From IMG/VR virus record IMGVR_UViG_3300031746_002179, positions 1-22,839 of that record: a stretch of 22,839 nt of DNA. One strand, 5' to 3'. The translations under genes and the position numbers were made by a program. Shown here piece after piece: positions 9,026 to 16,680 of the stretch. This stretch comes from a virus. Positions within the stretch are counted from its first letter, which is position 1; every line of letters begins with the position of its first letter. Under the pieces are notes generated by a model, which did no database searches, was not told the origin of the DNA, and was given only the letters and a program-made list of their open reading frames with translations.

Positions 9026-12000
9026 CTAGTTTCTCCTAAAATTTATAGATTGATTATTTATATCATTTTGTATTTTAGTCTTTATAAAATTATTATAAAA
9101 TTCTGAAACTTCGGCTTCGCTTTCACCACTGATTAAATTAACACCGCTAAAATTTGTATTTACATTAACTAATATACTGCTACCACCGCTTACATTGCCC
9201 CCACTGGCGTATCCCATAGAACCACCCTGTTTATCTGCGTTTATTTGCTCTAGGCGACTCCTTAAACGGTTAGAAACAGGAGGATATACGATATATTCAC
9301 CAGAAGTTAAGGCCACAGGTAATCTATTCGATGTTTGAGCACTGCCAGAAGCTGTCATGCGTTGTAATTCTGCCAAATGTCTTGTTGTAGCCTCTCTATT
9401 AATCACAAAAGAATTTCTAGGTAAAGAGGTATGAATATCATCAATGCCTCCATTACCACCACTAATTACACCTCCTGTAGCTCTTCTAATATATCCTCCT
9501 TGATTTAAAGCCAATCCAGCAGGCCCTATAATAGCCGATGCCGCCGCTTTCATTAAGGCTTCACCAGCTATAGATAAAATCCCCGTTGTTAAATCAGCCC
9601 ACCGCTGTTTTTCTTTATCATCCATATCTTTGAATAATTCAGCCAATGCCTTATTACGAGCGTCTAAAGCGTCTTGTAACGCCTGATCTCTTTCCTGCGT
9701 TATTTGGCCTATTTCACCGGCATAACGTATATTTTCTCTGCCCATTTCAATTGTTCGTTGTTGTTCTATATCGGCCACGGCAAGACGTTGTTTATCTTGA
9801 TAAAATGAATCCGTAACATTTCTTAATTGTTGCATTCTTTGTATACTTGAATTTTCAATCTCACTCCTTGACATACCTAAAGTATTTTCAAGATCATTTA
9901 ATGACTTTATCTGTTCTTCTAATTGAGCCAATTTAACCTGTCGGGCCTCAATAGACCCTATTTGAGCACTTGCCATGCCTTGGTCTATTTGCTGTATTAA
10001 AGCCGCACGTTCTTGTTCACTATTTAACCCTTTATTTCTTAATTGTTCTTCAAGGGCAGCTAATTCCATTAATTTATTTACACGTTCATTATATATTTCA
10101 CTTTCTTTTTCTCTACGCATATCATCGAATCTTACTCTAATCTCTTCCATTTTTTCCAAATGGTCTTGTTCGGCTTTACTCATCTTATCTCTAAACTCTT
10201 TTTCTATCTTTGCCACTTCCTCATTATATTTATCATAAATTTCTCTCATTTTTTTATCTTGTTCTGATTCGATACCAAATAAACTATTGACCCAATTCTG
10301 TAATTTTTCTTTTGCCATTGTTTTAACTAAATCAGTTACTTGATCTGCAACGTCTTTAATGGCATCAACAGCAATAGTAGAGGCATCTTCAAAAGCAATC
10401 ATATCAGCTATTGCATCTTTAAATTGTAAATGAAATTTTTCACCAAAAGTGCCATGAGCCATAATTTCTTTTTTATCAATTTGTTCTTGAATTGCCCTAT
10501 TTAATTCTTCTGCTTCATCGGTAGTTAAATGTAAATTTTTTCTATAATCAGAATTTGGGTCTTCTAAATCATGTTGTTTTTTTCTTAGTTCTATTAATTT
10601 TAGCTCTATCTCTAATGGTTTTTTCCGTATAGCCGCCGCTTGTTCACCAAAACCAACATCAGCCATATCTAATGCGTTAATTTGTTCTTGCAAAATTGTT
10701 TTTTCTTTTAATTGTTCTAATTCATCTTTATTTAATTTTTCTGTTATACTCTTATACTTTATTATATTTATTTGTTGAATTGATAATTTTAGATAAGCCG
10801 GTGATAATTTATTAGTAGAAGCTAATTCTTCTGCGTTTAAATCAAGGGCTTCATTTAAAGTAGTTATTCTCTCTTCATAAGCTTTATTTATATTATAAAC
10901 ATTTATATATTCATCAGAATGTGTTAATTTCATCTGTCTTTGTATTTGTTCATCAGAAATAGTAACTAAATCATTATTAATATCTTGGATCATTTGCATT
11001 TGTTCTGTTTCTTTATTTAATAAATCTGATCTTAATTTCTGTATAGGAGTTCTTAATTTTTCCACCGAAGCCATATCTTCTAATAATGCTTTACCTTTCT
11101 CTGATTTATCTAATTCTTTTTGTTGAATATCTCCATATTCAATAGCTTCTTTTCCTCTAACCCCTATAATACTATTATATTTTCGAACAATGTCGGCTTC
11201 TTTTGCTTTAATTTTTACACTACTTTCAGCAATTGAAATCTGTTGTTGTAAAACTTTCTTCTCGTCTATAAGCATTTTATATTTTGTGGCTTTTTGTGCA
11301 TACTCAGTATGAAGTTTTATATATCTTTCTTCACCAACCATATATTTATCAAGAAGGTCTTGTTGCCCCTGCATTTCATGTGTTATTTGTTGTCTAACTA
11401 ATTGTTCAAGAACTATTTCTTTTCTCGCTTTTTCTTGTTTTAATTTAGCTAATTCCGTATCTACTACTATTATACTCATTTCATCTTTAATTTTTTCTAA
11501 AGCATCTCTGCTTTTATCTAATTTTTTAAATAATTCATCCATCGCTTTTACTTGTAAAGTAATAATATTTTCACCTGCTACCGTTCCTTTACCTTCTTTA
11601 GTGGCTCTTTGAGCATTTTTCAATTCTTCATTCAATCTTTTTTGAGCGTCAATAGTATTAGTATTTATAATCTCATAATCTTCTGCTAATTGATTAATTT
11701 CTTTTCGTTTTGTAATTAATTCATCAACAGATTTTACCCCTCCTTGTTTCCATTCTTTAAACCTTTCTATTATATCTACTGTTTGTTTTTCTACTATACC
11801 ACCAAAATTTAATAAAAACTGATAATCAGTTCTAACAGGATCAATAGCCGTATTAAGCATTGATGTTTGCATTTTTGACAAATTAATAATATCATTAATT
11901 AAAAGTTTAATATTATACCCGCCTTTTTCTCGTATCATAACATCAGAAGCAAGACCTACTTTTTTTAATTCTTCTATAAGTGCTTTTAAATTTTTCTCTC

Positions 12001-14380
12001 CTTCCGGCGTATAAAACTTATTAAAATCATCTTTTCCATGTCTTGTTGCTATAAGTTCTAGTTGTTTTTGTATATCAGAAAGATTTCCTCCTACTGCTGC
12101 GTTTATTTCGCTAGTTGTACTTTCAAGATAATTTTTATATTCTTCCATATTCTTTTCTAATTCAGGGGTCGAACCTAATCCTTTAAATAAGTTATCCAAA
12201 GGATTAGGAACTTTATCTATATACGCTGACATTAATGTATGTGTCGCATCTATTATACTTTCTAAAGATGGCGCAATTTCTTTAATATTTTGTTCAATTT
12301 TAGATATAGAAGGAAATTCTATTTTTATAGCATAGGCTTCAGGTATAGTTCCCATTAATATCTTACCTTGTTCTAATAAATCATTTAACTCTTTTAAATT
12401 ATCTATTTGATAACCTGTTTGTTCTGTTACTTTTTTTAATTGTTCTGAAGTAAAACCCGCTTGTTCTCCTAATTGACCCAAAGAATCGGAATTATCATCT
12501 ATAATTTCTTTAGATTTCATAAATAAATCAGAAATTTTACCAATAACATATTGTAAAGCAACCAATCCTACAGTAACGACAATTAAACCAGTAGCGACTT
12601 GGAATGCTCTTGCTGCTAAAGTAGCGATTTGAAAAGACCTGCCCATAAAAGTAACACTTGCTGTAGTTATTTTAGATGTAACCGCAAGGATTTTTAAATT
12701 AAGATTCGTAGATAATATAGAACGACCAAAATTTCCAAATAAATTAATTGTTGTCGAAACCACATTATTAAAAAGAAACATTTTTGCCACAAAATATACG
12801 CCCATTAATTCAACTATTGTTTTTATAATAGGAGATAAAATACCTAGACTTTGCGCAAAACTTACAATTTGTATAATCGTACCACCTATTACGCTGGCGG
12901 TTTTAAGAATTATCGTAGATACATCAAAAAATAATGGCACTAATTCTTTTATTGTTTGTCCGAAATCTTTTCCCGTGCTCTTTTTAAGTTCTTCGTTGAA
13001 ACTTTTAACACCGTCTCTAATTCTTGTAAACCCTTCGGACATCGCGGGTTTTAACATTTCAAATAAAGTCATGCCAAAATCATTTAATTCAGCTCTCGTA
13101 AGCATAGATTCAGATTTCATACTTCTAAACATTTTAGTATAAATTTGGTCTATTATATTTACATCTTTCGCATCTGCTAATTTTTTAGCAAAATCACCTA
13201 CGGTTTCACCACCGTCTCTAATTCTTTGAATCAACACATACATAGCTGCGCCAGCGCGATCACCAAATAATTCAATGGCATCTGCGCTTGTTAAAGCGGT
13301 TTTAGCCATGACTCTGACAATTTGATCGAAACTATTAAATGCAGGATTCACTTCTTCATATCGCACATTTAATTTTTGCAACACTTTTTCTTGTTTTGCT
13401 CCGGCATTGGCTAATTCATATAAAGCCCGCCTGAACGTAGTTCCTGCTGTCGAAGCCTGTAATCCCATATCAATAAATTTAGATACTGCGGCAACTGTCA
13501 TTTCTAGAGTCTGATTAAAAGCCGCTCCTGCGGGACCTGCATAGTTAAATGCAATACCTAATTTTTGTATATCTGCTTTGCTTTCAATAGTGGCCGCGCT
13601 TAAAATATTCGCCACATCTGCTGTTTTTTCAAAACCCAAATTAAATGTTATTAACGCCGAAGTTACTAATTGCGTAACTTCTTGTAAATTACCCATTGTA
13701 GATGCCGTTAATTTTAATATAGGCTCTGTGGCAATTAATATATCTTTTACGCTTAAACCCATCTGCGCCAATGTTTCTGCAACACCTGCGACTTCCGTAG
13801 AGCTAAATATAGTTTCTCTTGCTATTCTACGCATTCCCGAAACCAAAGCCGTAAATTCGGTTCCACTTGCTTTAGCTATGGCTCCTACATGAATCATTGT
13901 ATTTTCAAATTCCATGCTCTGTTGAATTAAATTTTTAAAATAAAACAGTCCCCCTAATGTAATCATCGTTGTCATAATTCTACGCATTGTAAAAAAAGTG
14001 GATTGAAAAGCACCACTAGATGTATCGGCAAATAATTTCATAGATTGTCGTGCCGCTACAGTCGTAGAAGTTATTTTATTAAAACCCATTTCTATCTGCG
14101 CCATTTTATTTTTTAACATATTTATTTGAGTAGCGGATTTATTTATAGTGGTATTTAATCTTTCCATTGCATTAATTTCTGCTTGAGTTTGTTTTGTCAA
14201 TGTTATTTCATTATTAATTAATTTTGTATTTTTTACTTGTAATAATGTTTTAGCGTTTTCTAATCCAGTTATCGTCTTTTTTAGTTGCATTGCCATTTTA
14301 TCATATTGCCCCCATACTTTTGCCGTGCCTCTATCTATAATGCCTAACTCAACGTATAATTTCAGTATATTTTTATCCAT
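9026..14380 (-). CDS. Tail tape measure protein (TP901-type, 1784 aa)
   Basis: This is the longest gene in the window, as expected for the protein that sets tail length and helps DNA entry. After an N-terminal coiled coil, residues of roughly 150-420 match the TP901/PhageMin_Tail core: SMEFENTMIHVGAIAKASGTE, TEVAGVAETLAQMG, AGPAGAAFNQTLEMTVAAVS and STAGTTFRRALYELANAG. Hydrophobic segments at about 490-620 (for example VATGLIVVTVGLVALQYVIG) may enter the host membrane. Two long Glu/Lys/Gln-rich coiled-coil regions follow, to about residue 1600. Near the end are two Gly-rich motifs, GGVISGGNGGIDDI...FVINREA and RLPVALTSGEYIV. At the usual 0.15 nm per residue, the tail would be about 270 nm. The start has a weak GAGAT site. 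No sheath gene is present, which favours a siphovirus-type tail. Confidence 0.95.
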   Translation of the reverse strand: MDKNILKLYVELGIIDRGTAKVWGQYDKMAMQLKKTITGLENAKTLLQVKNTKLINNEITLTKQTQAEINAMERLNTTINKSATQINMLKNKMAQIEMGFNKITSTTVAARQSMKLFADTSSGAFQSTFFTMRRIMTTMITLGGLFYFKNLIQQSMEFENTMIHVGAIAKASGTEFTALVSGMRRIARETIFSSTEVAGVAETLAQMGLSVKDILIATEPILKLTASTMGNLQEVTQLVTSALITFNLGFEKTADVANILSAATIESKADIQKLGIAFNYAGPAGAAFNQTLEMTVAAVSKFIDMGLQASTAGTTFRRALYELANAGAKQEKVLQKLNVRYEEVNPAFNSFDQIVRVMAKTALTSADAIELFGDRAGAAMYVLIQRIRDGGETVGDFAKKLADAKDVNIIDQIYTKMFRSMKSESMLTRAELNDFGMTLFEMLKPAMSEGFTRIRDGVKSFNEELKKSTGKDFGQTIKELVPLFFDVSTIILKTASVIGGTIIQIVSFAQSLGILSPIIKTIVELMGVYFVAKMFLFNNVVSTTINLFGNFGRSILSTNLNLKILAVTSKITTASVTFMGRSFQIATLAARAFQVATGLIVVTVGLVALQYVIGKISDLFMKSKEIIDDNSDSLGQLGEQAGFTSEQLKKVTEQTGYQIDNLKELNDLLEQGKILMGTIPEAYAIKIEFPSISKIEQNIKEIAPSLESIIDATHTLMSAYIDKVPNPLDNLFKGLGSTPELEKNMEEYKNYLESTTSEINAAVGGNLSDIQKQLELIATRHGKDDFNKFYTPEGEKNLKALIEELKKVGLASDVMIREKGGYNIKLLINDIINLSKMQTSMLNTAIDPVRTDYQFLLNFGGIVEKQTVDIIERFKEWKQGGVKSVDELITKRKEINQLAEDYEIINTNTIDAQKRLNEELKNAQRATKEGKGTVAGENIITLQVKAMDELFKKLDKSRDALEKIKDEMSIIVVDTELAKLKQEKARKEIVLEQLVRQQITHEMQGQQDLLDKYMVGEERYIKLHTEYAQKATKYKMLIDEKKVLQQQISIAESSVKIKAKEADIVRKYNSIIGVRGKEAIEYGDIQQKELDKSEKGKALLEDMASVEKLRTPIQKLRSDLLNKETEQMQMIQDINNDLVTISDEQIQRQMKLTHSDEYINVYNINKAYEERITTLNEALDLNAEELASTNKLSPAYLKLSIQQINIIKYKSITEKLNKDELEQLKEKTILQEQINALDMADVGFGEQAAAIRKKPLEIELKLIELRKKQHDLEDPNSDYRKNLHLTTDEAEELNRAIQEQIDKKEIMAHGTFGEKFHLQFKDAIADMIAFEDASTIAVDAIKDVADQVTDLVKTMAKEKLQNWVNSLFGIESEQDKKMREIYDKYNEEVAKIEKEFRDKMSKAEQDHLEKMEEIRVRFDDMRREKESEIYNERVNKLMELAALEEQLRNKGLNSEQERAALIQQIDQGMASAQIGSIEARQVKLAQLEEQIKSLNDLENTLGMSRSEIENSSIQRMQQLRNVTDSFYQDKQRLAVADIEQQRTIEMGRENIRYAGEIGQITQERDQALQDALDARNKALAELFKDMDDKEKQRWADLTTGILSIAGEALMKAAASAIIGPAGLALNQGGYIRRATGGVISGGNGGIDDIHTSLPRNSFVINREATTRHLAELQRMTASGSAQTSNRLPVALTSGEYIVYPPVSNRLRSRLEQINADKQGGSMGYASGGNVSGGSSILVNVNTNFSGVNLISGESEAEVSEFYNNFIKTKIQNDINNQSINFRRN

Positions 14381-14385
14381 AATAT

Positions 14386-14820
14386 TTATCTCAGTTTTCT
14401 ATTACTACGCCCTCTTGATTGCCCTTGTGTCTTTGTTTTCGATCTATTTTCTACTTCTATCATCTGTTGTATTTCCTTCCTACAATCATTACGTTCTGAA
14501 TTAATTATACGCCTAAATACAAAAGTTTGTGGAGATTGTTCTAACAAACAATGCCCCACAATAGGGGTACCTGTATCCTCCCATGTTGCTATTAATTCTA
14601 TAACGTCCCATGCTTCTTTCTTTGGCACTGATAAAGGGCATTGGTCATATTCCATCGCTCCTATGCGGACATGGAATTTAGGATTCGTTTTTTCACCACT
14701 GCAATTAAAATTATCTTGTTTATCTGCTTCTATACATTCGGTGCAGTTCACAGGAATAGTTTTAGGCAAGCGGTCAGCACTTTTATATTCTGAATATCTG
14801 ACCGCCGCCCTTAACTGCAT
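14386..14820 (-). CDS. Tail assembly chaperone, T-like part (likely made by -1 frameshift)
   Basis: This frame precedes the tape measure gene, where lambda-like phages encode the T part of gpGT. It lies in the -1 frame relative to the upstream gene and is open from 14856, so it overlaps that gene's last codons. From ATG 14820 it would give 144 residues. The bases before that ATG have no clear Shine-Dalgarno site, unlike most genes here, which argues for expression as a fusion. A slip at the G run at 14846-14850 would give a protein of about 285 residues. The sequence has a C-x2-C-x10-C-x20-C pattern (26, 29, 40, 61), with FHVRIGAMEYDQCPLS and LLEQSPQTFVFRRI. The cysteines could bind a metal, though this is not typical of known T domains. 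The C-terminus is basic (SRGRSNRKLR). Independent translation remains possible. Confidence 0.75.
   Translation of the reverse strand: MQLRAAVRYSEYKSADRLPKTIPVNCTECIEADKQDNFNCSGEKTNPKFHVRIGAMEYDQCPLSVPKKEAWDVIELIATWEDTGTPIVGHCLLEQSPQTFVFRRIINSERNDCRKEIQQMIEVENRSKTKTQGQSRGRSNRKLR
14770..14805 (-). other. Inverted repeat (8-bp stem) inside the T-like frame
   Basis: GCGGTCAG (coding strand, 14805-14798) pairs perfectly with CTGACCGC (14777-14770) around a 20-base loop that itself contains the near-palindrome ATATTCAGAATAT. It lies about 40 bases downstream of the G run, farther than the usual 5-9 base spacer of stimulatory structures. It could act as a frameshift or translation control element, or be chance within coding sequence. 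Confidence 0.35.
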
Positions 14821-14828
14821 TTCAAAAC

Positions 14829-15242
14829 TTACACCGTTTGTGCTTCCCCCAAGTCTTCACCTTCTTCCGCATCACGATCCCTACCTGTAATAAAATTAAC
14901 GTACTCTCTACGAATCTCTGGCGGAAGTAAAGTGATATTTTCAAGACTAAAAGGAACGTCCTTACCACTCAATTCAGGATGTTCAATAGGATATTTAAAA
15001 TTCTTCCAATCCTTAATCGTAGCTTCTATTCTCTTAATATCCATTTGAGAAATCAAATATTTATATTCTGTTGTCTTTTTTTTCTGAATATTTTTTATTT
15101 GGTCATCATCAAATAAAGCACTTTCTTTCATATCTAATTGCTTATACATGATGGTAAGTTGTTGATTTTTTGGCAATTTATTATCAACTTTAGGAACCCA
15201 AGGCATGATAACTGTAGGGTCCATCGCAAGAACATTAGACAT
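14829..15242 (-). CDS. Tail assembly chaperone, G-like (137 aa)
   Basis: The 137-residue acidic/charged protein sits between the tail tube and tape measure genes, the standard place of the G-type chaperone that keeps the tape measure soluble and recruits tube subunits. It starts MSNVLAMDPTVIMPWVPKVD with a strong AGGAGGTTCT site just after the tube-gene terminator. Much of it is predicted helical (QQLTIMYKQLDMKESALFDD, about 27-46; KRIEATIKDWKNFK). The C-terminus, EEGEDLGEAQTV, is read from the region holding the G5 run. No sequence family is recognised, so the call rests on position, size (lambda gpG is 140 residues) and the frame relation to the next gene. Both the zero-frame product and a fusion with the following frame are expected. 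Confidence 0.75.
   Translation of the reverse strand: MSNVLAMDPTVIMPWVPKVDNKLPKNQQLTIMYKQLDMKESALFDDDQIKNIQKKKTTEYKYLISQMDIKRIEATIKDWKNFKYPIEHPELSGKDVPFSLENITLLPPEIRREYVNFITGRDRDAEEGEDLGEAQTV
14844..14850 (-). promoter_or_regulatory. Candidate -1 ribosomal frameshift site
   Basis: On the coding strand the zero-frame codons are TTG GGG GAA GCA, giving G-GGG-GAA at this site. After a -1 slip the P-site GGG codon would again pair with GGG, but the A-site GAA would face GGA. It is therefore not a perfect X-XXY-YYZ heptamer. It is the only plausible slip site in the 28 bases where both frames are open (between TGA at 14857-14859 in the -1 frame and TAA at 14829-14831 in the zero frame). Candidate status rests on frame relation and genomic position. 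Confidence 0.5.
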
Positions 15243-15332: not shown

Positions 15333-16538
15333 TTAAACCAATGCGCCAGTAGTTACAATTTCAATAGCTATATCAAAACCATTAGGCGTAACAGTACTAG
15401 CTCCTTTAACTAATAAACTATCCGCAGGGCTTTCTTCCCACATACCTACATACGGAAGAGGTTGTGTAAGAGCTTCGTTTCCACCGGCAGTAGGAGTTGT
15501 TCCATTAAACTCAATTCTAGGTAATATAATTTTCATGGTTTCAGTACCATCTCCAAGAAGATCAAATTCAATGGTAAAAATAGCCGATGTACCATGCAAA
15601 AATTTATTATAAAAAATTAAGTCCGTTAATTCCATAGAGATATTTCCAGTAATTTCTCTACGGCCCTCTGGTAAACTATTACGGTATCTATCACCCATAC
15701 AAAATTTATCACCATTTAAGTTATTTGTAAGAGACATATCGAAATTAAGAATACATTGGGTTTCACCGTCAATTGTAACTCCCCCATTAAAACCACTAAA
15801 AGGATCGTTTACTTCAGGGCGTTCAGCATATTGAGGAACGGCCATATCCACAATTTCTTCTTCTCTACCCATAATCGCAAATGTGCTCGTGATAATCCCC
15901 GTAGGCGTAGCAGCAATAGACCATGTATTTACACGGCAACCAGTATAACGAAACCATCCATGATTCACAAAATCATTTCCATTAATATCTTTAATCGTTC
16001 CACCATCACGGCTTATAAGAGACGTAAAGCCTGGTTCCATATTATAGCCATCGACCTCGTAATAACCAGTACGATAACCAGTGCAATCACTACATCCGTC
16101 ATCATAAATAACTTCATAGGGTTCATAATTAGCCGAATCTTGCTGATAACCGGCAGTTCCATCCCAATCAACACCATTCACATCAACAGGTAGAATAGTA
16201 TAAGGATCGGCAGTAATACCAGAACCTATTAATTTACCTATGGCCTGCACAATAAGCCATGCGTAACCATTATTCGTAAGTTCTACATTTACATCTCCGC
16301 CAATAGAACTTGCGCCTTGCATACGTCGTCTTAAAGCGCGTTCTGGGTTTAATGATTCCGAATTAAATGTGCCGATTTCATTCACAATAGATTCGGAATT
16401 CAATTCTATCCGTTTATACGTTCCTAATACAGTTCCTCCTGCATCTTCATTAACATTTCCAAAACACCGTTCTTCCATCCACAAAAACGTGGTTCTTGCA
16501 CCAGTGGCAAATGTTTTTTTACAACCTTCACAAGACAT
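15333..16538 (-). CDS. Major tail tube protein
   Basis: This 401-residue protein has the pattern of phage tail tube proteins: SESLNPERALRRRMQGASS (about 59-77), GDVNVELTNNGYAWLI, PGFTSLISRDGGTI, then FRYTGCRVNTWSIAATPTGI and TFAIMGREEE. It builds the stacked rings through which DNA passes. It is preceded by a strong GGAGG site inside the end of the lysine-rich small gene, and followed closely by a strong terminator, as expected for an abundant product. Unusual cysteines are present: CEGC at residues 3-6, C25, CSDC at 149-152, and C201. They could form disulfides or bind metal. No sheath protein accompanies it, so the tail is probably non-contractile. Confidence 0.88.
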   Translation of the reverse strand: MSCEGCKKTFATGARTTFLWMEERCFGNVNEDAGGTVLGTYKRIELNSESIVNEIGTFNSESLNPERALRRRMQGASSIGGDVNVELTNNGYAWLIVQAIGKLIGSGITADPYTILPVDVNGVDWDGTAGYQQDSANYEPYEVIYDDGCSDCTGYRTGYYEVDGYNMEPGFTSLISRDGGTIKDINGNDFVNHGWFRYTGCRVNTWSIAATPTGIITSTFAIMGREEEIVDMAVPQYAERPEVNDPFSGFNGGVTIDGETQCILNFDMSLTNNLNGDKFCMGDRYRNSLPEGRREITGNISMELTDLIFYNKFLHGTSAIFTIEFDLLGDGTETMKIILPRIEFNGTTPTAGGNEALTQPLPYVGMWEESPADSLLVKGASTVTPNGFDIAIEIVTTGALV

Positions 16539-16539
16539 C

Positions 16540-16680
16540 TTATGCCTCCTTTATTTTTTGATGATTAAACTTTTTCTTACTTTTTAATTTAATCGAATCT
16601 TTATTATCGCTTTCTTCGTTTAAATTCTTAAAATTCTTATCTTTTGATTCAGAAAAATACTCACACATTTTCTTTTCCAT
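16540..16680 (-). CDS. Small lysine-rich protein (46 aa)
   Basis: A 46-codon frame starts at ATG 16680, whose last base pair is shared with the stop of the upstream gene (TAATG), and ends one base before the tube protein ATG. It begins MEKKMCEYFSESKDKNFKNL and is highly charged, rich in Lys, Asn, Asp and Glu, with a KLKSKKK patch (about 32-38). No membrane segment or known family is seen. A TGAGG site lies about 5 bases before the ATG. The tube gene's ribosome binding site is inside this frame, so its translation could control entry to the tube gene. It is probably real, with no assigned function; it might act only as a leader. Confidence 0.6.
   Translation of the reverse strand: MEKKMCEYFSESKDKNFKNLNEESDNKDSIKLKSKKKFNHQKIKEA

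Follow-up and report, generated by a model that had tools for sequence, protein, structure and literature searches.

A probable lambda-type -1 frameshift at G GGG GAA between two tail assembly chaperone frames of an AT-rich virus

Ahead of its tape measure gene, a virus record that is 22,839 bases long and has a GC content of 33.5% (the window) carries two overlapping frames. We consider it very likely that both belong to tail assembly chaperones and that they are connected by programmed -1 ribosomal frameshifting of the lambda type. The frames and their overlap, the slip site, the gene order, a pattern that extends over the family, and the accompanying sequence signals are all directly observed. 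The mechanism is a known one and the slip site is known even if it is non-canonical, while the example itself is new; this assessment is well supported.

Gene order, overlap and slip site

Nearly all genes of the window are carried by the minus strand, in head-to-tail order, and all features of the window given below are on this strand. The major head protein gene (20080-19079) is followed by several small genes, the tail tube protein gene (15333-16538; Phage_tube_2, PF18906, E 2.6e-36; phrog_290), a 137-codon gene (14829-15242), a T-like frame (14386-14856), and the gene for the tape measure protein, TMP (9026-14380; matching phrog_1533 and others annotated as tail length tape measure, E 4e-42). 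The 137-codon ORF was assigned as G-like tail assembly chaperone gene from its position between tube and TMP and from its match to a G protein of the metagenomic contig L045, which is described below. The T-like frame corresponds to the C-terminal part of GT. As for G and GT of lambda, the two overlapping frames are located between the tail tube and the tape measure genes, and the second frame is -1 relative to the first and open throughout the overlap. The order tube, G, T, TMP is the same in related phages. In lambda, gpG has 140 residues and gpGT about 280, compared to 137 and 285 in the window, and the lambda slip site is the canonical G GGA AAG.

Just behind the tail tube gene (15329-15285) and the major head protein gene (19064-19025) there are very stable hairpins, each with a T-rich stretch after it. 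They resemble the terminators or attenuators that follow genes of high expression.

The T frame is open from 14856 and its stop ends at 14386, with an overlap of 28 nt between G and T. The G gene ends, in 0-frame codons, with GAA GAC TTG GGG GAA GCA CAA ACG GTG TAA. Its stop codon is at 14831-14829, and the first ATG of the T frame (14820) is located 8 nt downstream. A slip at G GGG GAA would result in a fusion of 285 residues (132 + 1 + 152). An earlier note on this DNA, made from the sequence alone, had described a -1 frame open from 14856 with a 28-base overlap and had predicted proteins of 137 and about 285 residues; the ORF analysis bears out both the geometry and the sizes.

The only in-frame slip candidate within the overlap is G GGG GAA (14850-14844, in the 0-frame TTG GGG GAA GCA), the same site that had been singled out before. 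Canonical heptamers of the type X XXY YYZ, which are usual but not required, are absent from the overlap, as are other slip sites with a triplet X besides GGG. Two copies of GGGGGAA are present in the window when both strands are counted, against 1.96 expected, so that its presence alone means little. In the right codon phase, it was encountered at none of 6,315 codon positions in 15 other genes. When 34-nt in-frame windows of these 15 genes were analyzed, 8.8% contained any canonical heptamer or GGGGGAA.

The same sequence is known from other tail chaperone pairs. In gp24/gp25 of mycobacteriophage D29 (AF022214), GGGGGAA is found in the same codon phase near the end of gene 24, and its context is near-identical (CAA CTG GGG GAA GCC in D29, TTG GGG GAA GCA in the window). 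The D29 G gene, like that of the window, is located just before the tape measure gene, and D29 GT is annotated as a joined CDS. The sizes are 134 and 137 aa for G and about 274 and 285 aa for GT, in D29 and in the window, respectively. However, no similarity of the G or T protein to those of the window was shown for D29, and its host is an actinobacterium, whereas the window is AT-rich. In gp14/gp14A of corynephage phi16, GGGGGAA again occurs in the same phase as in the window, with GTG GGG GAA GAC TAA as the end of G, and a frameshift at this site with an internal Shine-Dalgarno (SD) sequence and a downstream pseudoknot has been proposed by its authors (PMC5506516). Phage phi16 differs in that its slip site is only one codon before the stop and in the pseudoknot that is proposed there. 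According to the PRFect study, each of the SEA-PHAGES (actinobacteriophage) frameshifts with the "fivetwo" motif, about a thousand in number, has the sequence GGGGGAA, and re-pairing of tRNA-Glu on GGA is considered possible if G-U pairing is allowed (PMC10885494).

Thus, G GGG GAA is established as an annotated or predicted tail-chaperone slip site, though a non-canonical one. The support from D29, phi16 and PRFect consists of annotations and predictions, and a direct experimental test of the exact GGGGGAA site was not found. The site had originally been called an imperfect heptamer, and hence either an unusual slip site or a sign of independent translation; it is indeed not a strict X XXY YYZ, but these cases mostly remove its unusualness.

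Signals upstream and downstream of the slip site

The slip site is flanked by two signals that were absent from the earlier note. An internal SD-like AAGGTGA (14857-14863) is located 6 nt upstream. Its duplex with the 3' end of the 16S rRNA (anti-SD) has a calculated energy of -10.7 kcal/mol, compared to a control mean of -2.1, and it exceeds every control position of the same gene. Its 16S complementarity is within the top 1.6% of the coding strand.

On the downstream side, a compound RNA stem is predicted at 14739-14836. The outer stem begins 7 nt downstream of the slip site, at 14836, which is the usual spacing. It encloses an inner hairpin (14764-14810; -22.2 kcal/mol, z -4.65), which lies just inside the T frame, past the ATG. 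According to predicted folding, the 111 nt past the slip site are among the most stable 0.09% of coding-strand windows, and the 111-nt fold from 14850 has a z of -2.9 against shuffles. The inner hairpin was rejected as a stimulator by itself, because it starts 33 nt past the slip site and is too far away to stimulate alone. Scanning of the window for Rfam families and for tRNAs gave no match.

The 69 candidate sites of relatives (see below) also exceed controls with respect to upstream 16S complementarity (p 6e-8) and downstream folding (p 3e-6), but these p values are optimistic because the sites are related and there are several candidates per locus. Judging from sequence and predicted folding, the SD-like AAGGTGA and the RNA structure probably raise the slip rate.

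Relatives of the chaperone proteins and of the tape measure region

Searches of the PHROG and Pfam libraries gave no direct match for the G or T protein, including none to G or T of lambda, and tblastn searches of phages with G and T were equally negative. Single-protein searches with G, T, MCP, tube protein and full TMP detected no close relative among viral contigs, and neither did a search of viral and genome contigs with a G alignment. Because direct library and phage matches for G and T were lacking, relatives were sought via the conserved core of TMP. A three-sequence TMP alignment worked for the search, whereas a nine-sequence alignment was too diverse for a pattern search. To collect the G/T pairs of the relatives, the region directly preceding the tape measure gene was scanned mechanically for two ORFs that overlap in the -1 frame, and some of these picks may be wrong.

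The -1 arrangement of G and T turned out to be the rule among the relatives linked by TMP. A slip heptamer, in phase and inside the overlap, occurs in 50 of 58 distinct G/T pairs, while 4.3 are expected from same-length windows of tape measure genes. Many relatives have the slip heptamer although T lacks an early ATG, and in several of them (L026, L035, L052) the T frame is entirely free of ATG codons. A T frame without any ATG can hardly be made except by frameshifting.

Three further cases deserve separate mention. L024 and L042 each have, in the overlap before TMP, an in-phase GGGGGAA plus A AAA AAA. L082 (4345-4791) codes for a T-like domain with the motif CP...GGI-DQP and has a long -1 overlap without a canonical heptamer; here, TCG GGG ACT is a possible site for slippage of a single tRNA.

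At the protein level, tentative links to known tail chaperones were obtained for both partners. The window G protein is about 30% identical to that of L045 (tblastn E 0.002 in a small set), with a common W-NF...VPF-LEN core. The G protein of L045 is a match (9.4e-10) for the "Tail assembly chaperone" family phrog_313, and its T protein (3.4e-13) for the "tail chaperonin" family phrog_3817. L045 differs from the window in its slip site, which is A AAA AAG at the stop, and in its T protein, which is devoid of the four-Cys pattern described next.

The T domain of the window (14386-14820) has four invariant cysteines plus CP, G and Q residues in common with the T domains of Agrobacterium phage JP1 and of Rhizobium and Rhodobacter phages (L006, L094-L098), in which the order CP...G...Q is found and which also have a -1 overlap just before TMP. 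Some of these relatives, from Rhodobacter phages, are annotated as tail assembly chaperone. Profile comparison (hhalign) of T with the JP1-type family resulted in an E of 1e-4 and a probability of 58%, while the link for G is weak (hhalign E 0.018). The JP1-type phages differ from the window in having canonical slip heptamers, and their T identity to the window is 17-23%. Such heptamers (GGGAAAC, AAAAAAG, AAAAAAC) occur in the G/T overlap of all six T-domain phage relatives examined.

The pattern CxxC...C...CP is invariant across eight phages and suggests a metal-binding T domain, for which comparison to Pfam, PHROG and solved structures gave no match of note. In Agrobacterium JP1 (L006, 3489-3842) and in the Rhizobium phages L338C (L094, 1498-1887), RHph_I4 (L095, 1498-1887) and RHph_TM16 (L098, 1504-1905), G/T pairs with canonical heptamers are present but the frameshift is unannotated. 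They are annotated as separate hypothetical proteins, with T from an internal start.

Proposed mechanism, alternatives and significance

Position, phase, overlap, slip site, SD-like element, RNA structure and relatives all fit the lambda-type G/GT reading that had been put forward for this pair. Slippage itself, its rate, and the functions of the proteins are inferred. Most ribosomes would read 15242-14829 and produce the 137-residue G protein. A minority would slip back by one base at G GGG GAA (14850-14844) and would continue in the T frame, which would lead to the 285-residue GT. Upon slippage, the tRNA-Gly in the P site would re-pair perfectly, GGG to GGG, while re-pairing of tRNA-Glu on GGA would require G-U pairing at the middle base. 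The junction peptide would be GEDLGESTNG after tandem slippage and GEDLGGSTNG after P-site slippage; the GEDLG/GSTNG junction of the earlier note is thus correct for a P-site slip, but tandem slippage would give GEDLGE-STNG instead. By analogy to lambda (PMC5009743), the tape measure protein would be coated by G, whereas tail tube subunits would be recruited by the T part.

Some free T might be produced by reinitiation in addition to GT made by frameshifting. The two routes are not mutually exclusive and an ATG exists, but free T is outside the lambda scheme and nothing found here requires it, and we consider this combination rather unlikely.

More improbable still is that T is made only independently, by termination at the G stop and restart at ATG 14820, which would result in a separate 144-residue T and no fusion. 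The ATG is close behind the stop of G and several genes of the window are SD-poor, which makes reinitiation possible. Tightly packed genes of the window often start without a good SD (TMP and the genes at 16680, 17168 and 17818), and the four-Cys T domain lies entirely downstream of ATG 14820. However, many relatives have a slip heptamer and lack a suitable ATG, as described above, and a hairpin of -22 kcal/mol starts about 8 nt behind ATG 14820. In addition, reinitiation leaves the phased SD, the slip site and the structure unexplained.

The start itself has weak 16S complementarity (-5.6 kcal/mol) and no well-placed SD. This agrees with the statement in the earlier note that a clear SD is missing, but its addition that most genes here have one is only partly right: complementarity is weaker than that of T at TMP, 16680, 17168, 17818 and 4746. 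The missing SD was therefore rejected as a stand-alone argument. It is poor in either direction, because TMP and several other genes are equally SD-poor. It is the pattern in the relatives, together with the phased signals, that makes frameshifting much likelier than reinitiation.

It is highly improbable that the true gene is one fused ORF which was disrupted in the G run by a recent mutation or by an error of assembly. The site is a homopolymer in which one extra G would fuse the frames, but the -1 arrangement is the rule in the relatives, the G5-AA context occurs also in D29 and phi16, and the SD and the structure on either side are in phase with the slip site.

With frameshifting as the preferred reading, we tentatively suggest, as an idea that may well prove wrong, that the D29-type G GGG GAA has been adopted here by an AT-rich phage without recognisable relationship to actinobacteriophages. 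Slippage would then be driven mainly by the P-site tRNA-Gly, with the internal SD and the structure helping, and the site would arise repeatedly and would work outside GC-rich actinobacteria.

The analysis makes a correct annotation of the tail chaperones possible in a divergent phage in which they are not recognised by protein libraries. It also provides a clean AT-rich example of G GGG GAA with both classic stimulators. As this slip site is common but little-tested, the example from the window would help to decide between tandem and single-tRNA slippage.
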